Assembly (NCBI GenBank): GCA_016219175.1
Contig: JACRCD010000045.1
Coordinates: forward strand, 1-64,000
Source of the DNA: Deltaproteobacteria bacterium
GTDB taxonomy: Bacteria; Desulfobacterota; Desulfobulbia; Desulfobulbales; SURF-16
Reading direction: 5' to 3'
Length of the DNA: 64,000 bases
How positions within the stretch are numbered: position 1 is the first letter of the stretch; every line of letters starts with the position of its first letter. The notes under the pieces were generated by a model, which did not search any database, was not told where the DNA came from, and was given only the letters and a program-made list of their open reading frames with translations. Below are positions 322 to 11,403 of the stretch, one piece after another. A program made the position numbers and the translations under genes.

Positions 322-2046
322 GTGATTGATGATAAGATGAAAAAAATTGATTTTTTACCAACTACCGCGGCAGAGATGCGCGCTCGCGGCTGGGACAGGG
401 TAGACATCATCCTTGTCACGGGAGATGCCTATGTGGATCATCCCGCCTTTGGCGTGGCGTTGATTGGCAGACTGCTTGAGGCAAATGGGTACAGGGTGGC
501 CATCCTGCCCCAGCCGCGCCACGACTCGCCACAGGCATTCAGGGAATTCGGTCCTCCCCGTCTTTTCTGGGGCATAACAGCAGGAAATCTTGATTCCATC
601 GTCGCCAACTACTCCGGCAACGCCAAGGTTCGCGACGTTGATCAATATGCGCCAGACGGCAACCCCTATTTCGAAGAGCGCCGGATAAAAAGCGAGCGCC
701 GCCGGCCTGATCGCGCCGCGATCAGATATGCAAATCTTGCCAGGAACGCCTATGCCGGAATTCCCATCATCCTTGGCGGACTCGAGGCGTCCCTGCGCCG
801 TTTCGTGCATTATGATTACCAGCAGGGCAAGGTGCGCGCCTCTGTGCTGACAGATGCCAAGGCGGATCTGCTGGTGTATGGCATGGGAGAAAGGGCTGTC
901 CTCGAAATTGCCAAAAGACTTGATGCCGGGGGTGATCTTGGCGGGATAGACGGAACATGCCAACGGTTCACGGAAGCGCAGATGGAAAATGTTGCCAGGG
1001 AGGCTTGCGTTCCGCTGCCTTCCTGGACGGAGATCGAAGAGAACAAAGAATCTTTTTTGAGCGCGGAACTGCTTATTGATAAACACGCCAGGGAATTAAG
1101 CCGGTCCGTTCTCCTCCAGAAACAGCAGGCCATGTGGGTGATTCAATATCCCCCTGCCGCACCACTGACCACGGAAGAGCTGGACCAGCTTTATGGGCTT
1201 GCCTTTACCCGTAAACCCCACCCCGCTGCCGGGGATGTGCCCGCCTACAGGATGATTTGCCATTCCATCACCATTGTCAGAGGCTGCTTTGGCAACTGTT
1301 CGTTCTGCGCCATATCCCGACACCAGGGGCCTGTTGTTACTTCGAGAAGCGCGGAGTCAATTCTGGCCGAAGTTGTCCAGGTGACAAAAATGGCTGATTT
1401 CCGTGGCACGATCAGCGATTTGGGTGGGCCGACCGCTAATTTGTACGGGCTGGGCTGCCGGAGCAAAGGGTGTAAACGGCATGATTGTCTCTATGACGGA
1501 GTATGCCGTCATCTCAATATTGACGAGAACCCTTTCATTAATCTGCTGGATAAGGTGAGCAAGGTGCAAAAGGTGAAGAATGTCTTTATTTCGTCAGGTT
1601 TGCGGATGGAGCTCCTTCTTAACACGCCGAGGCTGTTAAAAAAAATATTGACCTCCCATACCCCCGGCGCCATGAAAATCGCCCCGGAACATACAGTTGA
1701 GCATGTGTTGCGTCTCATGCATAAACAGGGCGCCGATATTTTACCGGCCTTTCTGGCCTTGTGCCGGAAAATATCCCGTGAAACCGGGAGAAAAATCATT
1801 TTTACTCCTTATTTTATTTCAGCCCATCCCGGCTGCACCATGGATGACATGAGGGCGCTGGCTGGTGATTTGCGCAAGCTCGGGCTGTCCGTGCGTCAAT
1901 TTCAGGATTTTACTCCCACCCCGGGAACGATCTCCACGGCCATGTACGTCAGTGGACTTGACCGTTATAAACGTAAACCCGTTTATGTTGCATACCATTC
2001 CAAAGAGCGCATGAAACAGCGGCAGGTCCTGGAAGAAATGAAATAA
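322..2046 (+). CDS. ygiQ: YgiQ family radical SAM protein (UPF0313)
   Basis: Radical S-adenosylmethionine enzyme of the YgiQ family; its substrate is unknown. The cluster-binding motif CFGNCSFC (CxxxCxxC) lies at residues 322-329, preceded by a long N-terminal region with the family-typical [11 protein letters not shown] segment near residue 150, and ending in the conserved [13 protein letters not shown] tail. At 574 residues it is shorter than the E. coli protein, which has an extra C-terminal extension. The start could be GTG at 322 (a GCAGG lies 11 nt upstream) or ATG at 337; neither has an ideal ribosome site. It stands alone, with a weak hairpin after the stop. Confidence 0.9.
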
Positions 2047-2251: not shown

Positions 2252-3286
2252 GTGGAGCACACAAGAAAAAATAACGACGTCATACTTGTCGGCATTGATC
2301 TTGGCACATCACGAACGGCTGTGATGACAAACAGGGGATTTAAAGACATTATCCATTCGGTAGTCGGCTACCCCAAGGATGTCATCGGACTGAAACTCGT
2401 CGGTAAGAGCCAGGTTTTTGGCGAAGAGGCGTTGAGGCATCATTCCGCCCTGACCCTTTATCATCCCCTGGAAGACGGGGTTGTGCGCGAGGCAAGTAAA
2501 AGTGATTATAACGCCGCCTATGAACTGATAAAACATGTGATTGAACAGGCGCGCCAGGGAAGCGGAGATGAGGTGTGCGGCGTGATAGGCGTGCCTGCCC
2601 GGGCATCCATTATCAACAAGGAACTGCTGGTTAAACTTGCCCAGGATCTTATGTCGATTGCCGTTGTTGTTTCCGAGCCATTCATGGTTGCCTACTTTCT
2701 GGACAAACTCAGTAACTCAATCATCGTTGATATCGGGGCGGGAACAGTAGATATCTGCGGGATGAAGGGTACGATCCCTTCGCCAAAGGATCAGGTTACG
2801 CTTCTCAAGGCCGGAAATTATATCGATGAAAGATTTGAATCCGTTATCTTGCAGCGTTATCCCGAAGCGCAGGTTACCAAAAATTCCCTGCGAATCATCA
2901 AGGAACAATACGGATTTGTCGGTACTCCCCCGGAAACGGTCAAGGTTTCCATGCGTGTCGGCGGCAAGCCGTTGGAGCTTGATATCACCGAGGAGCTGCA
3001 GTTGGTATGTGAAAGCATTGTCCCTGATATCATAGAACATCTTGAAGCTATCATCAGAGGTTTTGACCCGGAAGATCAGCAGCAGGCCCTGTTAAACATT
3101 TATCTGGCTGGTGGGGGTTCAAAGATTAAAGGTATCGATTCCTTTATTGCCGGACACCTTCAGGAATACGGAGATGTGCGGGTGGCCTGTGTGGCTGATC
3201 CAGACTATATTGGCAGCGCTGGAGCATTGAAGATGGCAACTGAGGTGCCTCCGGAGTTATGGAATCAGGTTGGTTTCTTAAGTTGA
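2252..3286 (+). CDS. MamK-like actin-family ATPase, first paralogue
   Basis: Actin/Hsp70-fold filament-forming ATPase most like MamK, the protein that builds the filament holding magnetosomes in line. The phosphate-1 loop GIDLGTSRTAV is at residues 14-24, followed by SVVGYPKDVIG, the phosphate-2 region VDIGAGTVDIC (Asp160) and the adenosine motif LAGGGSKIKG. Glu142 and Asp160 sit where MamK has its catalytic Glu143 and Asp161. Length is 344 residues against about 347 for MamK. The GTG at 2252 is preferred because AAAGG lies 9 nt upstream; the ATG at 2243 abuts that site. It leads a co-directional cluster with a coiled-coil protein, a second paralogue and a stress protein. MreB and DnaK fit less well. 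No magnetosome genes are visible, so the cargo is unknown. Confidence 0.85.
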   Translation: MEHTRKNNDVILVGIDLGTSRTAVMTNRGFKDIIHSVVGYPKDVIGLKLVGKSQVFGEEALRHHSALTLYHPLEDGVVREASKSDYNAAYELIKHVIEQARQGSGDEVCGVIGVPARASIINKELLVKLAQDLMSIAVVVSEPFMVAYFLDKLSNSIIVDIGAGTVDICGMKGTIPSPKDQVTLLKAGNYIDERFESVILQRYPEAQVTKNSLRIIKEQYGFVGTPPETVKVSMRVGGKPLELDITEELQLVCESIVPDIIEHLEAIIRGFDPEDQQQALLNIYLAGGGSKIKGIDSFIAGHLQEYGDVRVACVADPDYIGSAGALKMATEVPPELWNQVGFLS

Positions 3287-3299
3287 CGAAGAGCGTGAT

Positions 3300-3788
3300 A
3301 TGGATTTATTCATCTGGTTTTTATTTCTCGCGTTAGGTGCCGCCATAGGGAGCGGAGTCGCTGCCTATTTTCTGCGTAACAGAGACAAGCAGGAAAGCGA
3401 ACAGGCTAAGAATGACTACGAAAATCAAGTAAACTCCCTGAACACTCAGCTCCGCGACGTGAAGGCAAAAATGGACAGCGTGCGTGATGAGGGGAAACGT
3501 TACTGGGATGAACTGCAGCTTGAAAAAAAGCTGCGAATAGAGGCCGAGGAAAAAATCAAGGTCATCCCGGGGCTTGAGGCCAGACTTCAGGAAAAGGAAC
3601 AAAACGTTAAAGGCCTGGTTGAAGAAAATGCAGGATTAAAAAATTCTCTGGCCGGAGTAGAAAAAGAGCTCAGCGATGAACGCCTCTATTTTAAGGATTG
3701 CCTCATATTTGTCCAGGGCAGCCATTATCTTCCCGCCGGTGTTGTTCGCAACATGATGCGCCAGCAAGAAGAATCCGATAAGTCATGA
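3300..3788 (+). CDS. small membrane-anchored coiled-coil protein between the two MamK-like actins
   Basis: I do not recognise a named family. The 162-residue protein has one N-terminal membrane helix (about residues 4-24), a short positive segment (RNRDK), then a charged, heptad-rich coiled coil from about 30 to 130, and a conserved-looking hydrophobic C-terminal patch around residues 135-152 (FVQGSHYLPAGVVRN). It starts 13 nt after the first actin-like gene and precedes the second, so all three are probably co-transcribed. By position and shape it could anchor the actin filaments to the inner membrane or act as a nucleator; this is inference only. Coiled-coil proteins also accompany mamK in deltaproteobacterial magnetosome clusters. 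Confidence 0.75.
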   Translation: MDLFIWFLFLALGAAIGSGVAAYFLRNRDKQESEQAKNDYENQVNSLNTQLRDVKAKMDSVRDEGKRYWDELQLEKKLRIEAEEKIKVIPGLEARLQEKEQNVKGLVEENAGLKNSLAGVEKELSDERLYFKDCLIFVQGSHYLPAGVVRNMMRQQEESDKS

Positions 3789-3897
3789 TATACTAGGTGC
3801 TTTCTCTCCGCCGGTTTCGTCCGGTACCGGCGCCGGCAAAACAAATTTTTTCTCAACTGCGCTATTTCAGAGAATTCTTTTTTAAAAGGTAAGCAAT

Positions 3898-4968
3898 ATG
3901 GAAATCCAGCAGCAACATTCCAGGGAAACAGGGCATCCTCTTCAACAGGGGCAACTTCTTGTTGGAATTGACCTTGGTACGTGCCGGACAGCTGTTATGT
4001 CCAGTCGAGGCGCGCGTTTTATGTGTAGATCGGTGGTGGGATATCCCAAGGATGTTATTAGTGAGAGGATGGTTGGCTCAGGGCCGATAATCGGCCAGGA
4101 TGCCATCAAAAAACGCAGTTTCCTTGATCTTTGCTATCCTTTGGCGGACGGCGTTATACGTGAGGCCAGCGAACGTGATTATGATGCAGCTTATGAACTG
4201 ATTAAACACGTGGTTGGGTTGGCGAAACAGGGAACGGATTCCCCGGTGAGCGGCATAATAGGGGTGCCGGCCAGGGCGTCAATCATGAACAAGGAGCTGT
4301 TGCTGGATATTGCCAAGGAAGTCATGTCAGTTGCCCTTGTTGTTTCGGAACCTTTCATGGTGGCCTATCAACTCGGGAAATTAAGCAACTGTATTGTCAT
4401 CGATATTGGCGCCGGTACCGTGGATATCTGCGGCATGAAGGGGACTGTTCCGGCCGCGGATGATCAGGTGACTTTTCTGAAAGGAGGAGATTTCATCGAT
4501 GGGCGCCTGGAGGCGGCGATTGCCCGCCATTATCCCGGGGTGCAGATAACTGACTCTGTAGCCTGCGCCATCAAGGAGGCCCATGCCTTTGTCGGTGAGG
4601 CAACCGCGCCGGTGATTGCTAAGCTGCGCATGGAAGGTAAACCCGTTGCCTTTGATGTGACAGAGGATGTGCGCGTGGTATGTGAAAGCATCGTCCCTGA
4701 TATCGTTGAGCAGCTTGAGACCTTAATCATGAAATTTGATCCGGAGGATCAGGAAGAGGCGCTGAAAAACATCATTCTGGCTGGGGGAGGCTCACGTATA
4801 CGAGGTCTTGACCGTATGATTGCCAGGCAGATGAAGGATTATGGCGAAATAGTGGTAACCTGTGTCGATGATCCGGAATTTGTCGGCAGCGCCGGCGCCT
4901 TGAGACTGGCAACAGAAATTCCTGCCGATAAATGGCCGGAAATCGGCGTGATGTTCGGGGCGGATTAG
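3898..4968 (+). CDS. MamK-like actin-family ATPase, second paralogue
   Basis: Second MamK-like actin, 356 residues, clearly paralogous to the one at 2252-3286: it repeats the phosphate-1 loop GIDLGTCRTAV (residues 23-33), the VGYPKDVI segment, GIIGVPARASIMNKELL, SEPFMVAY with Glu151, IDIGAGTVDIC with Asp169, and LAGGGSRIRGL. The putative catalytic Glu and Asp are both kept, so both paralogues should hydrolyse nucleotide. The ATG at 3898 follows AAAAGG with good spacing. The N-terminus is longer and glutamine-rich compared with the first copy. A 109-nt gap with GC-rich inverted repeats separates it from the coiled-coil gene. Two different actins may form a mixed filament or two separate ones. 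Confidence 0.85.
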   Translation: MEIQQQHSRETGHPLQQGQLLVGIDLGTCRTAVMSSRGARFMCRSVVGYPKDVISERMVGSGPIIGQDAIKKRSFLDLCYPLADGVIREASERDYDAAYELIKHVVGLAKQGTDSPVSGIIGVPARASIMNKELLLDIAKEVMSVALVVSEPFMVAYQLGKLSNCIVIDIGAGTVDICGMKGTVPAADDQVTFLKGGDFIDGRLEAAIARHYPGVQITDSVACAIKEAHAFVGEATAPVIAKLRMEGKPVAFDVTEDVRVVCESIVPDIVEQLETLIMKFDPEDQEEALKNIILAGGGSRIRGLDRMIARQMKDYGEIVVTCVDDPEFVGSAGALRLATEIPADKWPEIGVMFGAD

Positions 4969-5022
4969 CAGGGAAACCGGGCAGGGCTCCCATGGCTTGC
5001 CAAAAATGGTTATGAGAAGAAA

Positions 5023-5967
5023 TTGGGTCGACGAGTGAAAAAAAAGATACTTGTGGCTGTTGACGGTTCCTATTGCTCGCTTAATCAAATCCATTATTTA
5101 AGCCGATTGTTTGGTGGCTATAACGATATTGCCCTGCATCTTGTCTCCATTGCGCCCTCAAGTTCCCTGCCCCCTGATTTGCAATGGGCAACGGAGAAAG
5201 ATAAAATAGACCAGCTTCCTCCTGAGACGAAAAAGAAAACCTGCCTGATAGAAAAACATTTACGGGAGGAGGTCGTTTATCTTACCCATCATGGGTTTAC
5301 GGAAGAACAGGTCATATCTTCCTTGCGCGTCTCCCGGTTAGGGATAGCCAGTGATATCATTAATGAAATGCATAAGGGAAAGTATGATGCCCTGGTTATA
5401 GGCCGAAGGGGGCTTGGTAAACTGCAGGAACTTGTGCTGGGCAGCGTCACCACTGCTATTCTTGAAAAATGTTTCAATGTGCCGATCTGGATCGTTGATG
5501 GAGAGATTGCCTCCCGCGAATTTCTTGTGCCGATTGATGGCTCGTGGCGAACCTTGCGTGCCGTTGATCACTTGAGTTTTGTTCTTGAAAATGTTGCGGA
5601 TGTGGAAATTTCTCTTTTTCATTCCGCGGCATGGCTTGCGCCGAAAAAAAAGTTGGATTCCGTAAAATTCCATGAGATATGGGGCAAGGAGTGGTGTGAT
5701 GAACATCTTTGCCGTCCTGATTCCATATTCCACGGACCTGAACAGCTGTTGCGCGAAAGCGGTTTTAACATGCAGCATGTTAAGAGGATTGCCAAAAGCA
5801 AAGGGCCTGTTGCTGCTCTGGATATCGTGCATGAACTCGGTAACAAAAAATACGGGACTATCGTCATGGGCCGGCGTGGTCCGGATGAGCCGAAGGGTAT
5901 TTTCGGCGGGGTGTCAGGTACGGTGCTGCGCACGGTAAACGATGTGGCAGTGTGGTTGGTAAATTAA
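5023..5967 (+). CDS. tandem universal stress protein (two UspA domains)
   Basis: Two universal stress protein domains in one 314-residue chain. The first begins KKILVAVDGS near residue 6 and ends with the ATP-binding signature GRRG-9x-GS near residues 127-141; the second begins FLVPIDGS near residue 167 and ends with GRRG-9x-G near residues 289-303, where the last position is Val rather than Ser/Thr, so nucleotide binding may differ between domains. The start is TTG at 5023 or GTG at 5035; neither has a strong ribosome site. It lies 54 nt after the second MamK-like gene on the same strand, hinting at a link between a nucleotide- or stress-sensing protein and the filament system; that link is inferred. 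Confidence 0.85.
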   Translation: MGRRVKKKILVAVDGSYCSLNQIHYLSRLFGGYNDIALHLVSIAPSSSLPPDLQWATEKDKIDQLPPETKKKTCLIEKHLREEVVYLTHHGFTEEQVISSLRVSRLGIASDIINEMHKGKYDALVIGRRGLGKLQELVLGSVTTAILEKCFNVPIWIVDGEIASREFLVPIDGSWRTLRAVDHLSFVLENVADVEISLFHSAAWLAPKKKLDSVKFHEIWGKEWCDEHLCRPDSIFHGPEQLLRESGFNMQHVKRIAKSKGPVAALDIVHELGNKKYGTIVMGRRGPDEPKGIFGGVSGTVLRTVNDVAVWLVN

Positions 5968-7767: not shown

Positions 7768-7855
7768 GAGTCTTACTCATTGCTGTTTAGCCGAATGGGT
7801 TGTTTCTGTCCGTGCAACCAGCCGTAAAAGTTAAATATATTTGCCGAAAAGAATA

Positions 7856-8644
7856 ATGATTTCTTTTGTAACCAGAATCGGTGATTCCTTTCTCTATTTA
7901 GTTCGCGATCAGGGACGCATGGGCATCTTTTTGATGTCAGCCGTCATGGGGATATTTGCGCGTCCTTTTCGATTTCGTGAGGTTGTGCGGCAGATTCGCA
8001 TTATCGGGGCAAATTCGTTTGCCGTCATCTTTTTTACCGCTATTTTTACCGGGATGGTTCTCGGTTTGCAAGGTTACTATACCCTGCGTAAATTCGGTTC
8101 GGAAGGGCTGCTCGGTTCAGCAGTCGCCTTAAGCCTTATCCGTGAACTTGGGCCCGTTCTCACCGCTCTTATGGTAACAGGCCGTGCCGGTTCGGCCATG
8201 TGCGCGGAAATCGGCATCATGCGCAATACGGAGCAGATAGACGCCTTGGAGTGCATGGCGGTCAATCCGTTTCGTTATCTCATTACCCCTAAATTTCTGG
8301 CCACCATTATCTCGATCCCGATTCTCACCCAATTCTTCAATGTCATCGGCATTGCCGGCGGCTACGTGGCCGGCGTTCTGCTCCTTGGGGTAAATCCCGG
8401 GGCTTATTATAACGGCATTGAGCAGAGCGTTGTCAATGAGGATATTAATCTCGGCATTGTTAAATCATTTGTCTTTGCCCTTCTGGTGGTTTGGATATGT
8501 ACAGGCCGGGGGTATTTCGTTCATATTCTTCGTAACGCAGGTTTTGGCGCCGAAGGCGTCAGCAGGGCCACGACCCAGGCTGTGGTGCTTTCCTCTATTT
8601 CCGTGCTGGTCTGGGACTATCTTATCACGGCAATCATGTTATGA
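7856..8644 (+). CDS. mlaE: MlaE, phospholipid ABC transporter permease
   Basis: Inner-membrane permease of the Mla system, which moves phospholipids between inner and outer membranes. The protein (262 residues) has five or six hydrophobic segments and the family hallmarks FTGMVLGLQGY near residue 60, the LSLIRELGPVLTALMVTGRAGSA block near residues 90-112, EIG.M..TEQIDAL, and an RATT motif near the C-terminus. The ATG at 7856 aligns best with E. coli MlaE; a TTG at 7841 would add five residues. It overlaps mlaF by four bases (ATGA). It heads an mlaEFDCA operon; no STAS-domain mlaB is present. Confidence 0.92.
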   Translation: MISFVTRIGDSFLYLVRDQGRMGIFLMSAVMGIFARPFRFREVVRQIRIIGANSFAVIFFTAIFTGMVLGLQGYYTLRKFGSEGLLGSAVALSLIRELGPVLTALMVTGRAGSAMCAEIGIMRNTEQIDALECMAVNPFRYLITPKFLATIISIPILTQFFNVIGIAGGYVAGVLLLGVNPGAYYNGIEQSVVNEDINLGIVKSFVFALLVVWICTGRGYFVHILRNAGFGAEGVSRATTQAVVLSSISVLVWDYLITAIML

Positions 8645-9417
8645 GCCCCCCGATTATCGAATTTCGTAATGTCGTGAAATGCTTCGGCCAACAACGTGTC
8701 CTTGATGGAGTATCGGTCTCTTTTGCGGCAGGGATGACAACGGTGATCGCCGGCGGCAGCGGTCAGGGTAAAAGCGTCACCCTGAAGCTCATTCTTGGTC
8801 TGATATCCCCTGATTCCGGAGAGATTCTGGTTAATGGACGTGATATTACCAAGATGAAACTCTCTGAATTAAATAGAATCCGGGAAAAATTCGGTGTGCT
8901 GTTTCAGGGTGCCGCGCTGCTTGATTCCATGACCGTCTTTGAGAATGTTTCCCTGCCGTTGCGGGAAAGAACGAATTACCGGTCTCAGGAAATTGTTGAC
9001 CGGGTCAAGAAAATGCTGGCCCAGTTTGATCTCGACGGTCATGAAGAAAAATACCCCGCTCAGCTCAGCGGGGGCATGAAAAAAAGGGTCGGTTTGGCCA
9101 GGGCTTTGATGCTGCAGCCTGAAATCATGCTTTTTGACGAGCCGACCACAGGGCTTGACCCGCAGATTACCATGGATATTTACCGTCTTTTTTTTCAAAT
9201 GCAAAAGCAGTTCGGATACACGTCGATTATTGTCAGCCATGATATTCCCAAGGTCTTTAATCTGGCTGACCAGGTAGTTTTGTTGAATAAGGGCAAAATG
9301 ATAACTTTTTTAAGCCCTGAAGATATTCCGCTCAGCATGGATCCGCGCATTGTTACCTTTGCCGCCGAAACCATGGGAAATATTTATTCAAGCAGAAAGA
9401 TGGAACAGAACATATGA
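8641..9417 (+). CDS. mlaF: MlaF, phospholipid ABC transporter ATPase
   Basis: ATP-binding subunit that powers the MlaE permease from the cytoplasmic face. Walker A GGSGQGKSV near residues 37-45, signature LSGGMKKRVGLARAL near 140, Walker B LFDEPTTGLDP near 163 and the switch histidine in VSHD near 200 are all intact, so it should be active. At 258 residues it has the usual length. Start overlaps the mlaE stop and its stop overlaps the mlaD start by four bases, indicating translational coupling. Confidence 0.94.
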   Translation: MSPPIIEFRNVVKCFGQQRVLDGVSVSFAAGMTTVIAGGSGQGKSVTLKLILGLISPDSGEILVNGRDITKMKLSELNRIREKFGVLFQGAALLDSMTVFENVSLPLRERTNYRSQEIVDRVKKMLAQFDLDGHEEKYPAQLSGGMKKRVGLARALMLQPEIMLFDEPTTGLDPQITMDIYRLFFQMQKQFGYTSIIVSHDIPKVFNLADQVVLLNKGKMITFLSPEDIPLSMDPRIVTFAAETMGNIYSSRKMEQNI

Positions 9418-9860
9418 AAAAAACGAATATTGAATTTGTTGTTGGGGTATTTTTAATAGTTGGGTTTCTGGCCTTTGCCTATATTTCCTTGCAGTTTGGC
9501 GAGTTTTCGATTTTTTCCAGGGCGGAGAATTATACAATTCTGGCTGATTTTGACAGTGCCGCGGGTTTGAAGAAAGGAGCGCTGGTTACTATTGCCGGCG
9601 TTAATGTGGGAAAGGTGTCAAGCATCAGACTGACAAAGGAACAGCAGGCCGAAGTCGCGCTCTATCTGGCCAATGATGTTCTGATTACCGATGATGCCAT
9701 AGCCTCCATCAAAACCCAGGGGATTATCGGGGACAAGTATATCCGCATCAGCCAAGGCGGCTCTGAAAACTATCTCAAGGAAGGGGGCGTGATCACCGAG
9801 ACGGAGTCCGCGGTTGATCTTGAAGAGTTGATCAGTAAGTATATCTTTGGGGGTGTATAA
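9414..9860 (+). CDS. mlaD: MlaD, MCE-domain membrane-anchored lipid-binding protein
   Basis: One N-terminal membrane helix (residues 8-28) followed by a single MCE domain (about residues 38-118) that projects into the periplasm, forms a hexameric ring on MlaE and passes lipid to MlaC. The MCE core pattern GL..GA.V...GV.VG.V is visible near residues 50-66 and IIGDKYI near 104. At 148 residues it is shorter than E. coli MlaD (183) and lacks most of the C-terminal tail. Start overlaps mlaF (ATGA). Confidence 0.92.
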   Translation: MKKTNIEFVVGVFLIVGFLAFAYISLQFGEFSIFSRAENYTILADFDSAAGLKKGALVTIAGVNVGKVSSIRLTKEQQAEVALYLANDVLITDDAIASIKTQGIIGDKYIRISQGGSENYLKEGGVITETESAVDLEELISKYIFGGV

Positions 9861-9915
9861 CCATAGTTCGCCATTTGTGTTTTTTAATAACTAATCGGGT
9901 TGAAAAGTCGTTTGC

Positions 9916-10563
9916 ATGAAGATGGATGGAAAGCGAAAAAAACTTAATTTTTTCTTTTTGATACCGCTGGTTGCCTTTACCGTGTTTTCAAGTATGCCTG
10001 CCCTTTGCGAAAGCTCAGGGGAAGCGCTTGAACAGTTGCGGGGGGCGGTTGAGCGAATTGTTGATATCTTAAGAAGAAACGAACCTGGCGAGCAATGGGT
10101 TGACAAAAAAGAAGAGATTGCCAAGATTGTTAAAAGCAGGTTTGATGCCGAAGAGCTCGCTCAGCGTGTTCTTGCCCGGAATTGGCGAGAAAGAACAGCT
10201 GAGGAAAAGAAAGAGTTTATCTCTCTTTTTTCAGAGATTCTGGAGACGACGTACATCAATAGGCTCAAATCATATTCCGATGAGGAAGTCGTCTTCGTAA
10301 AACAGATTGTCAAAGGCAATAATGCCGTTGTTTATAGTGAAATAATCAAAAACCAACAGGAAATCCCCATTGATTACCGGCTGCAGAATAATAATGGAAA
10401 TTGGTTGATTTATGATATCAGCATTGAAGGGGTCAGTCTTGTGCAGAACTACCGGCAACAGTTTGACCAGATATTGAACCGCGAAAACTACGCTGGTCTT
10501 GTCCTGAAAATGCTGGAAAAGATCAAGCAAAACAAAGAGAAAGACCTAGAGGAAAAAGAGTAG
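9916..10563 (+). CDS. mlaC: MlaC, periplasmic phospholipid-binding protein
   Basis: Soluble periplasmic carrier of the Mla pathway (also called Ttg2D family). A signal peptide is clear: positively charged start (KRKK), a hydrophobic run at about residues 11-30, and a likely cleavage after ALC/ES. The mature protein has the family's RFDAEELAQRVLARNWRE-like helix near residues 75-92, the LETTYINRLKSY helix and a C-terminal beta region ending near IEGVSLVQNYRQQF. Length (215) is typical. It lies 55 nt after mlaD in the same operon. Confidence 0.9.
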   Translation: MKMDGKRKKLNFFFLIPLVAFTVFSSMPALCESSGEALEQLRGAVERIVDILRRNEPGEQWVDKKEEIAKIVKSRFDAEELAQRVLARNWRERTAEEKKEFISLFSEILETTYINRLKSYSDEEVVFVKQIVKGNNAVVYSEIIKNQQEIPIDYRLQNNNGNWLIYDISIEGVSLVQNYRQQFDQILNRENYAGLVLKMLEKIKQNKEKDLEEKE

Positions 10564-10587
10564 GAAGTGCAAAAAAGAGGTATCATT

Positions 10588-11403
10588 GTGATAAAAACTA
10601 TTCAATACGCACAGCTGGGCAGGGTTTTTCTGTTTATGCTGTTTATTTTGTTTTCCACTGATTTCAGGCCCGATTCCCTCTGTTTTTCTTCTCTGCCTCC
10701 GGCCTTGGCGGCTGACGGGGATGTTCCGGACAATTCGTTTGATGACATGGATGAGCATGATTCCGGCAGGCAGATAAGTGACCCGCTTGAACCGGTAAAC
10801 CGCTTGTTTTTTCATTTTAACGATAAACTCTATTTCTGGGCATTAAAACCTGTTGCCCAAGCATACGGTAAGATTCTCCCTCAAGATTTTCGTATCTGTA
10901 TTCGCAACGCCTTTGATAATGCGTTATTTCCCGCACGGTTTGTTAATAATGTCCTGCAGGGGAAATTTAAAAACGCGGGAATTGAGCTGTCCCGTTTCGC
11001 CATCAATACCACTGCCGGTGCTGCCGGCTTCGGGGACCCGGCCAAGGATGTTTTCAGCCTGGACATGAAAGATGAGGATCTCGGGCAGACTTTTGGTTAC
11101 TGGGGGATAGGGAATGGAATATATTTCTGTTGGCCGATCCTGGGACCATCGACTTTACGGGATACTGTCGGATTTTCCGGAGATTCCTATTTGAGCCCCA
11201 TTACCTGGGTTATGCAGGGTAGCTTGGCGGATGGACTGGCATTATATACAGGTCAGCAGGTTAACGATACATCCCTGGTTATTGGTGATTATGAGGCTTT
11301 TCTCGAATCGTCATTTGACCCATATGTTTCTCTGCGGGATGCCTATGTCCAGCATCGGCAGAGCAAAATTGACGATTCAAAGCAAAATAATAAGGTGTAT
11401 TAG
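10588..11403 (+). CDS. mlaA: MlaA (VacJ), outer-membrane phospholipid-removing protein
   Basis: Outer-membrane component of the Mla pathway. The conserved block starts at DPLEPVNR and continues through FFHFNDKLYFWALKPVA, then NNVLQGK and the glycine-rich DFGQT-like segment (here EDLGQTFGYWGIGNG), and a PILGPS.LRD motif. GTG at 10588 is chosen because AGAGG stands 7 nt before it and it gives a proper signal peptide; a GTG at 10567 would add seven residues. I see no lipobox cysteine, so it is probably exported by an ordinary signal peptide rather than as a lipoprotein like the E. coli protein. Last gene of the mla operon. Confidence 0.9.
   Translation: MIKTIQYAQLGRVFLFMLFILFSTDFRPDSLCFSSLPPALAADGDVPDNSFDDMDEHDSGRQISDPLEPVNRLFFHFNDKLYFWALKPVAQAYGKILPQDFRICIRNAFDNALFPARFVNNVLQGKFKNAGIELSRFAINTTAGAAGFGDPAKDVFSLDMKDEDLGQTFGYWGIGNGIYFCWPILGPSTLRDTVGFSGDSYLSPITWVMQGSLADGLALYTGQQVNDTSLVIGDYEAFLESSFDPYVSLRDAYVQHRQSKIDDSKQNNKVY

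Follow-up and report, generated by a model that had tools for sequence, protein, structure and literature searches.

What would two actins of the MamK family be doing in a bacterium when no magnetosome genes are seen near them? The question is raised by a locus on contig JACRCD010000045.1 (assembly GCA_016219175.1), of which the first 64,000 nucleotides of the forward strand were analysed (hereafter the window). The contig comes from a deltaproteobacterium of the order Desulfobulbales; in it two such actin genes (A and B) bracket a gene for a small membrane coiled-coil protein (CC), and a gene for a universal stress protein (Usp) follows. All four open reading frames (ORFs) of an initial annotation, made from the DNA alone, are present on the + strand. 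The reading that we favour, with somewhat better than even confidence, is that A, CC and B form a non-magnetosomal cytoskeletal module of MamK type, in which a membrane-tethered filament with an accessory actin would serve a cargo other than magnetosomes.

A and B score 484.3 and 482.1 bits respectively with the MamK family model (NCBIfam NF040964), both above its curated cut-off of 400 bits, and reach only 34–64 bits with MreB models, MreB being compared by these model scores and not in the tree. The two share 56% identity with one another and their closest solved structures are MamK 5JYG and 5LJV/5LJW, the closest to A in the PDB being 5JYG/5LJW at 405 bits. An AlphaFold2 model of B (predicted local distance difference test score, pLDDT, 90) has the MamK filament 5LJV as its top Foldseek match, with a template modelling (TM) score of 0.96 by target length and approximately 53% identity to MamK in the structure alignment. 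In a tree rooted with BeeR, and in a second tree, A and B both group with MamK. The initial annotation had described two distinct MamK-like actins that keep their catalytic Glu and Asp, and this was borne out, as the connecting-1 Glu and the phosphate-2 Asp are retained in both proteins of the window. It had also named two results that would speak against it, a tree placing both proteins within MreB or DnaK and a lack of conservation of the cluster among related genomes; neither was found.

Neither a magnetosome-type MamB nor a MamP was detected in the window's genome (G000) or in seven module-bearing relatives, by genome-wide searches that covered these two proteins and not MamA, E, I, M, O or Q. 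The best MamB scores in these eight genomes (82–122 bits) are at the level of ordinary cation-efflux proteins, compared with 236–438 bits in genomes that do have magnetosome genes. This agrees with the absence of other magnetosome genes remarked on initially: with none nearby, and neither a magnetosome-type MamB nor a MamP encoded elsewhere in the genome, the actins of the window are not encoded with a magnetosome system. The module might still organise magnetosomes whose genes were overlooked, given that its actins belong to the MamK family and that G000, at 98.4% completeness, leaves a few per cent unseen. However, the absence extends to all eight genomes, including G208, a single contig of 3,097,763 bp in which gaps are not the cause, and we regard overlooked magnetosomes as highly improbable.

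Conservation of the locus was surveyed in 258 Desulfobulbales genomes, 56 of which carry MamK-family genes. The order A-CC-B (type I) was found in 17 genomes: 11 in the family of the window (f1), two of genus g52 (family f8) and four in family f14, where two of the four loci have contig breaks within the module. A second form (type II), comprising one A-like actin with CC, occurs in about ten genomes of family f15, some interrupted by contig ends. The flanking genes differ between families, with YgiQ-type genes in the f1 loci that were checked, a hybrid histidine kinase gene in f14, rlmL and RACo genes near the copy in G208, and an aminotransferase gene and an atpI-like gene in f15; the order A-CC-B is therefore retained while its chromosomal setting has changed. 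Within f1, 11 genomes carry the complete set of three genes and another 11 carry none of them, both states occurring within each of genera g1, g6 and g7 (Fisher p 2.8e-6, relatedness ignored). The neighbourhood that the initial annotation had proposed to look for across relatives is thus conserved more than chance would allow, as a unit of three genes and not of four: Usp lies downstream of B in only 4 of the 17 A-CC-B genomes, all close relatives (G000, G005, G020 and G021). On this count Usp was rejected as a core part, and it is probably an optional, lineage-specific neighbour.

By comparison with G020, the ratio of non-synonymous to synonymous substitution rates (dN/dS, by NG86) was 0.06 for A, 0.03 for B, 0.03 for CC (about 0.08 by YN00) and 0.11 for Usp, although these ratios are rough as the synonymous rate (dS) is high in this comparison; those of the module are similar to or below that of the neighbouring ygiQ. 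A, CC and B are an inherited unit, gained and lost together and under purifying selection, and most of the bacteria that carry it are without magnetosome genes. One suggestion of the initial annotation, that the cluster is a relic, did not survive. In such a case mamK and a neighbour would have been left over from a lost magnetosome gene cluster and would be decaying, which would fit the grouping of the module actins with alpha-type magnetosome MamK. Decay does occur, as seen in G209 (same genus as G208), where the module has collapsed to a single 230-amino-acid remnant (L164:6795-7487, contig C18) stitched from scraps of A, the CC tail and B; here it has decayed as a block, unless the remnant is an assembly artefact. 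The module is nevertheless intact in 17 genomes, and because of this wide conservation and of dN/dS values of about 0.03–0.08 in all three genes we do not consider it a relic. Moreover, the tail motif of CC described below is missing from every magnetosome locus fetched, and G252 (f15; L082 and L081) has an actin-CC pair on contig C17 and, apart from it on contig C2, a cluster of magnetosome type that includes a MamK, the two MamK proteins of this genome being distant and on opposite sides of the tree. A relic thus appears very improbable.

In the tree the actins of the module group together (97/98) close to the alpha-type magnetosome MamK of Magnetococcia, Nitrospinota and AMB-1, and are far both from the magnetosome MamK of Desulfobacterota and from a set of amidase-linked actins considered below. 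B is a single clade (100/100), while the A side (93/86) also includes L089, a MamK from a magnetosome cluster in G242, and L083, which has non-magnetosome neighbours. In approximately unbiased (AU) tests, the module as one clade without L089 and L083 gave p 0.165, and the alpha-type magnetosome MamK including L089 as one clade gave p 0.066. Whether the module was the source of magnetosome MamK, which would make it the precursor that the initial annotation had suggested, or the reverse is not settled by these tests, the root and the place of L089 both being unsure. G242 also encodes MamB, MamM and a MamP-like protein, MamM adjoining the L089 MamK, and both G252 and G242 are likely to be magnetotactic members of the order.

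CC (P0002) has a hydrophobic segment at its N-terminus followed by a predicted helix of 132 residues with a heptad periodicity of 3.50, equally strong in only 18 of 2000 shuffles, in keeping with the one-helix membrane protein with a long coiled coil that had been predicted. As basic residues directly follow the N-terminal membrane helix, the coil is most likely cytoplasmic. Alignments of 23–25 relatives showed that among 25 CC proteins the coil falls to approximately 22% identity whereas the tail, G-S-H-Y-L-P-G-x-V-V-R-N-L/M, is kept, with H142 and P145 invariant and with Tyr or Leu directly after the His (in the window, G-S-H-Y-L-P-A-G-V-V-R-N-M-M at residues 140–153). The AlphaFold2 model of CC comprises a helix (residues 2–133), two strands (135–138 and 142–145) and a second helix (146–161). 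When all ORFs of all loci fetched by then were considered, magnetosome loci included, the tail motif was confined to the CC proteins of the module. Strong full-length matches to a CC profile were likewise confined to module genomes; the rest were weak or partial and mostly in ORFs of about 500 amino acids, and the two within the order that were read (G032 and G033) appeared RmuC-like by eye and are without the tail motif. Outside Desulfobulbales, the phylum sample gave six weak matches (44–57 bits), in ORFs of 490–540 amino acids and stopping before the tail. That so short a tail is conserved at the end of a coil anchored in the membrane would point to a constant partner, and since an actin is the sole partner present in every case, the tail may bind actin.

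The two actins differ in how strictly they are conserved. In B the Glu and both Asp positions are intact in 16 of 16 sequences, with one adenosine-site Gly lost in two, and mean identity within f1 is 75%, by comparison with 62% for the faster-evolving A. In each of the four genomes of genus g2, A has lost the connecting-1 Glu (E to K); in the two g52 genomes (G208 and G210) A carries D to K at the phosphate-1 Asp and D to T at the second phosphate-2 Asp. Given that E143 and D161 of MamK are required for filament dynamics (PMC5059902), A has the look of an accessory actin in which some lineages can do without ATP hydrolysis; the copy in the window is intact. B is the catalytically intact and more conserved paralogue, and we infer from these patterns a division of labour between the two.

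A working model can be proposed from these features. B would polymerise like MamK as the ATP-hydrolysing subunit, with A either co-assembling with it or regulating it; CC would be anchored in the inner membrane via its N-terminal helix, its coiled coil extending up to approximately 15–20 nm into the cytoplasm, and its conserved C-terminal hairpin-helix would touch the filament. Such a filament of B, modified by A and held by CC, is suggested by analogy with the MamK-binding protein McaB (PMC13170167) and with pairs of actins that interact. Tethered to the membrane, it might position or segregate a cargo such as an inclusion, an internal membrane or a polar complex. Several points weigh against this proposal: polymerisation and the A-B and CC-actin contacts are inferred only; the CC model has a predicted TM score (pTM) of only 0.38, and its fold gave no match in a search of the PDB; no cargo gene is common to the module neighbourhoods; and type II loci do not include B, which means that a filament of two actins is not needed in every lineage.

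The membrane anchor of CC would equally suit a structural or cell-shape skeleton, in which a membrane-bound actin serves the envelope or large cells in the manner of MreB or of Bbp, a MamK-like actin of the giant cable bacterium Candidatus Electrothrix gigas, for which a function in large cells has been proposed (PMC10580974). A distant MamK-like gene adjoining an N-acetylmuramoyl-alanine amidase gene in families f6 and f7 points the same way. We consider a skeletal role rather unlikely, however, as MreB-type genes are also present, the amidase-linked actins belong to the opposite side of the tree and the Bbp operon, as published, encodes a Kelch protein and no CC protein (PMC10580974). An actin with a small partner is also the outline of a ParM-like or AlfA-like DNA partition cassette, but here the partner carries a membrane helix, the actins are of the MamK and not the ParM family and the module is chromosomal, beside housekeeping genes. 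There were no parC-like direct repeats in the intergenic gaps and no match among 72,556 plasmids, on which grounds plasmid partition was rejected; DNA segregation seems scarcely credible as the function. Beyond the favoured cytoskeletal module, and more tentatively, at rather less than an even chance, non-magnetosome sulfur bacteria may run a dedicated MamK-type organelle-positioning system for a different cargo, with its own membrane adaptor bearing a conserved C-terminal filament hook and an accessory actin that is turning pseudo-ATPase, which would represent either the stock for magnetosome MamK or a stable re-use of it.

Other MamK-like genes of the order were seen in different settings. 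Those single genes of families f6 and f7 that were checked lie directly 3' of an N-acetylmuramoyl-alanine amidase gene. In families other than f1 this arrangement, with a distant MamK-like actin, is seen at L084, L087, L103 and L125 (Amidase_3 was confirmed in the first three and L125 was assigned by position only), and it may tie such actins to the cleavage of the cell wall. Tandem divergent MamK-like actins without CC are encoded at L076 (G207) and L127 (G460), the L076 pair being followed by an FtsA-like protein of 392 amino acids. At L102:4458-7152 (G101) a long-branch MamK-like actin is encoded beside an FG-GAP propeller protein, a possible but unproven relative of Bbp.

Coordinates of the module and its surroundings are given in Table 1. 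The intergenic gaps are 13 bp (A-CC), 109 bp (CC-B) and 54 bp (B-Usp), and because of a G+C-rich inverted repeat within the second of these, expression of the module as a single transcript is only putative. The initial annotation had placed all four genes behind one good promoter; a candidate can be seen by eye, but a consensus scan did not list it and the scan's total, 8 sites against 4.7 ± 2.1 expected, is near chance. The Usp protein (P0004) has the two domains that were predicted for it. The YgiQ-type gene is a common neighbour in f1 and lies outside the module. Further downstream, the window holds a complete and uninterrupted lipid-transport operon, mlaE-mlaF-mlaD-mlaC-mlaA (7841–11403; by Pfam, with MlaF as a generic ABC ATPase).

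Table 1. Features of the A-CC-B locus and adjoining sequence in the window.
Feature	Position	Strand	Basis and remarks
YgiQ-type radical SAM (S-adenosylmethionine) protein, upstream neighbour	322..2046	+	Pfam Radical_SAM_N in the window, L007 and L054
Possible promoter, TTGACA-18-tgTATTAA	2131..2160	+	By eye; not listed by consensus scan; weak
MamK-family actin A	2252..3286	+	GTG start; 344 amino acids; NCBIfam NF040964, 484 bits
CC, bitopic membrane coiled-coil protein	3300..3788	+	162 amino acids; alignment, motif and AlphaFold2 model
G+C-rich inverted repeat in the CC-B gap, a possible attenuator	3798..3843	+	18-nucleotide arms, 72% complementary
MamK-family actin B	3898..4968	+	356 amino acids; NF040964, 482 bits; fold; tree
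Tandem Usp protein	5023..5967	+	314 amino acids; Pfam Usp in two stretches

Published work that used MamK as its marker for magnetosome clusters recommends it as the protein best suited to the search for magnetotactic bacteria in open genome data, and no non-magnetosome homologues were reported inside MamK clades (PMC7449369). The module looks like a counter-example. Actins that pass the MamK cut-off are encoded in genomes that have neither MamB nor MamP of magnetosome type, which weakens MamK as a marker and calls for caution with surveys for magnetotaxis that use MamK only. The module also makes a non-magnetic role of MamK worth seeking, and it has a bearing on whether an older system was the source from which the magnetosome cytoskeleton was recruited. 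We found no publication describing an A-CC-B module in the literature searched; the surprise is lessened by Bbp (PMC10580974), through which MamK-like actins without magnetosomes were already known in Desulfobulbales.

Compared with known systems, the module differs from ParM-type cassettes, which have a DNA-binding adaptor and parC repeats, as it is without direct repeats and its partner is a membrane coiled-coil protein. Bbp resembles it in being a MamK-like actin of non-magnetic Desulfobulbales (Ca. Electrothrix gigas) and other large bacteria; its operon, however, encodes hypothetical and Kelch-domain proteins, its published tree position is between MamK and MreB (PMC10580974), and the module, whose neighbours are CC and Usp, is set apart from it by that published operon description. 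MamK and Mad28 of Desulfovibrio magneticus RS-1, which interact (PMC10653835), offer another set of two actins with coiled-coil partners, one that organises an organelle. Mad28, however, shares only 15–17% identity with MamK, and Ser takes the place of its phosphate-2 Asp (PMC10653835), whereas the actins of the window keep this Asp and exceed 50% identity to MamK, and the coiled-coil Mad proteins of RS-1, unlike CC, are without membrane helices.

Among known proteins, CC is nearest to McaB, MamY and MamJ of Magnetospirillum. The published motifs of MamJ (N-terminal DXWX2LLEXSPWS and C-terminal VPVEX4GXFX2AXSA; PMC2818848) are both absent from CC on reading its sequence. A likeness in architecture only is to McaB of AMB-1, in which a membrane helix preceded by four residues leads into a coiled coil and which is a direct binder of MamK filaments (PMC13170167); CC shares the short N-terminus, single membrane helix and cytoplasmic coiled coil, but has 162 amino acids to the 219 of McaB, which is located on magnetosomes. 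AMB-1 also has two divergent MamK-family actins per cell, MamK and MamK-like, which interact (PMC13052382); unlike A and B, both are encoded within magnetosome loci with other mam genes. With the alpha-type magnetosome MamK of AMB-1 and MSR-1 itself, the actins of the window share their fold and catalytic residues and pass the same family cut-off, and they differ from it in being two paralogues arranged around a CC gene.

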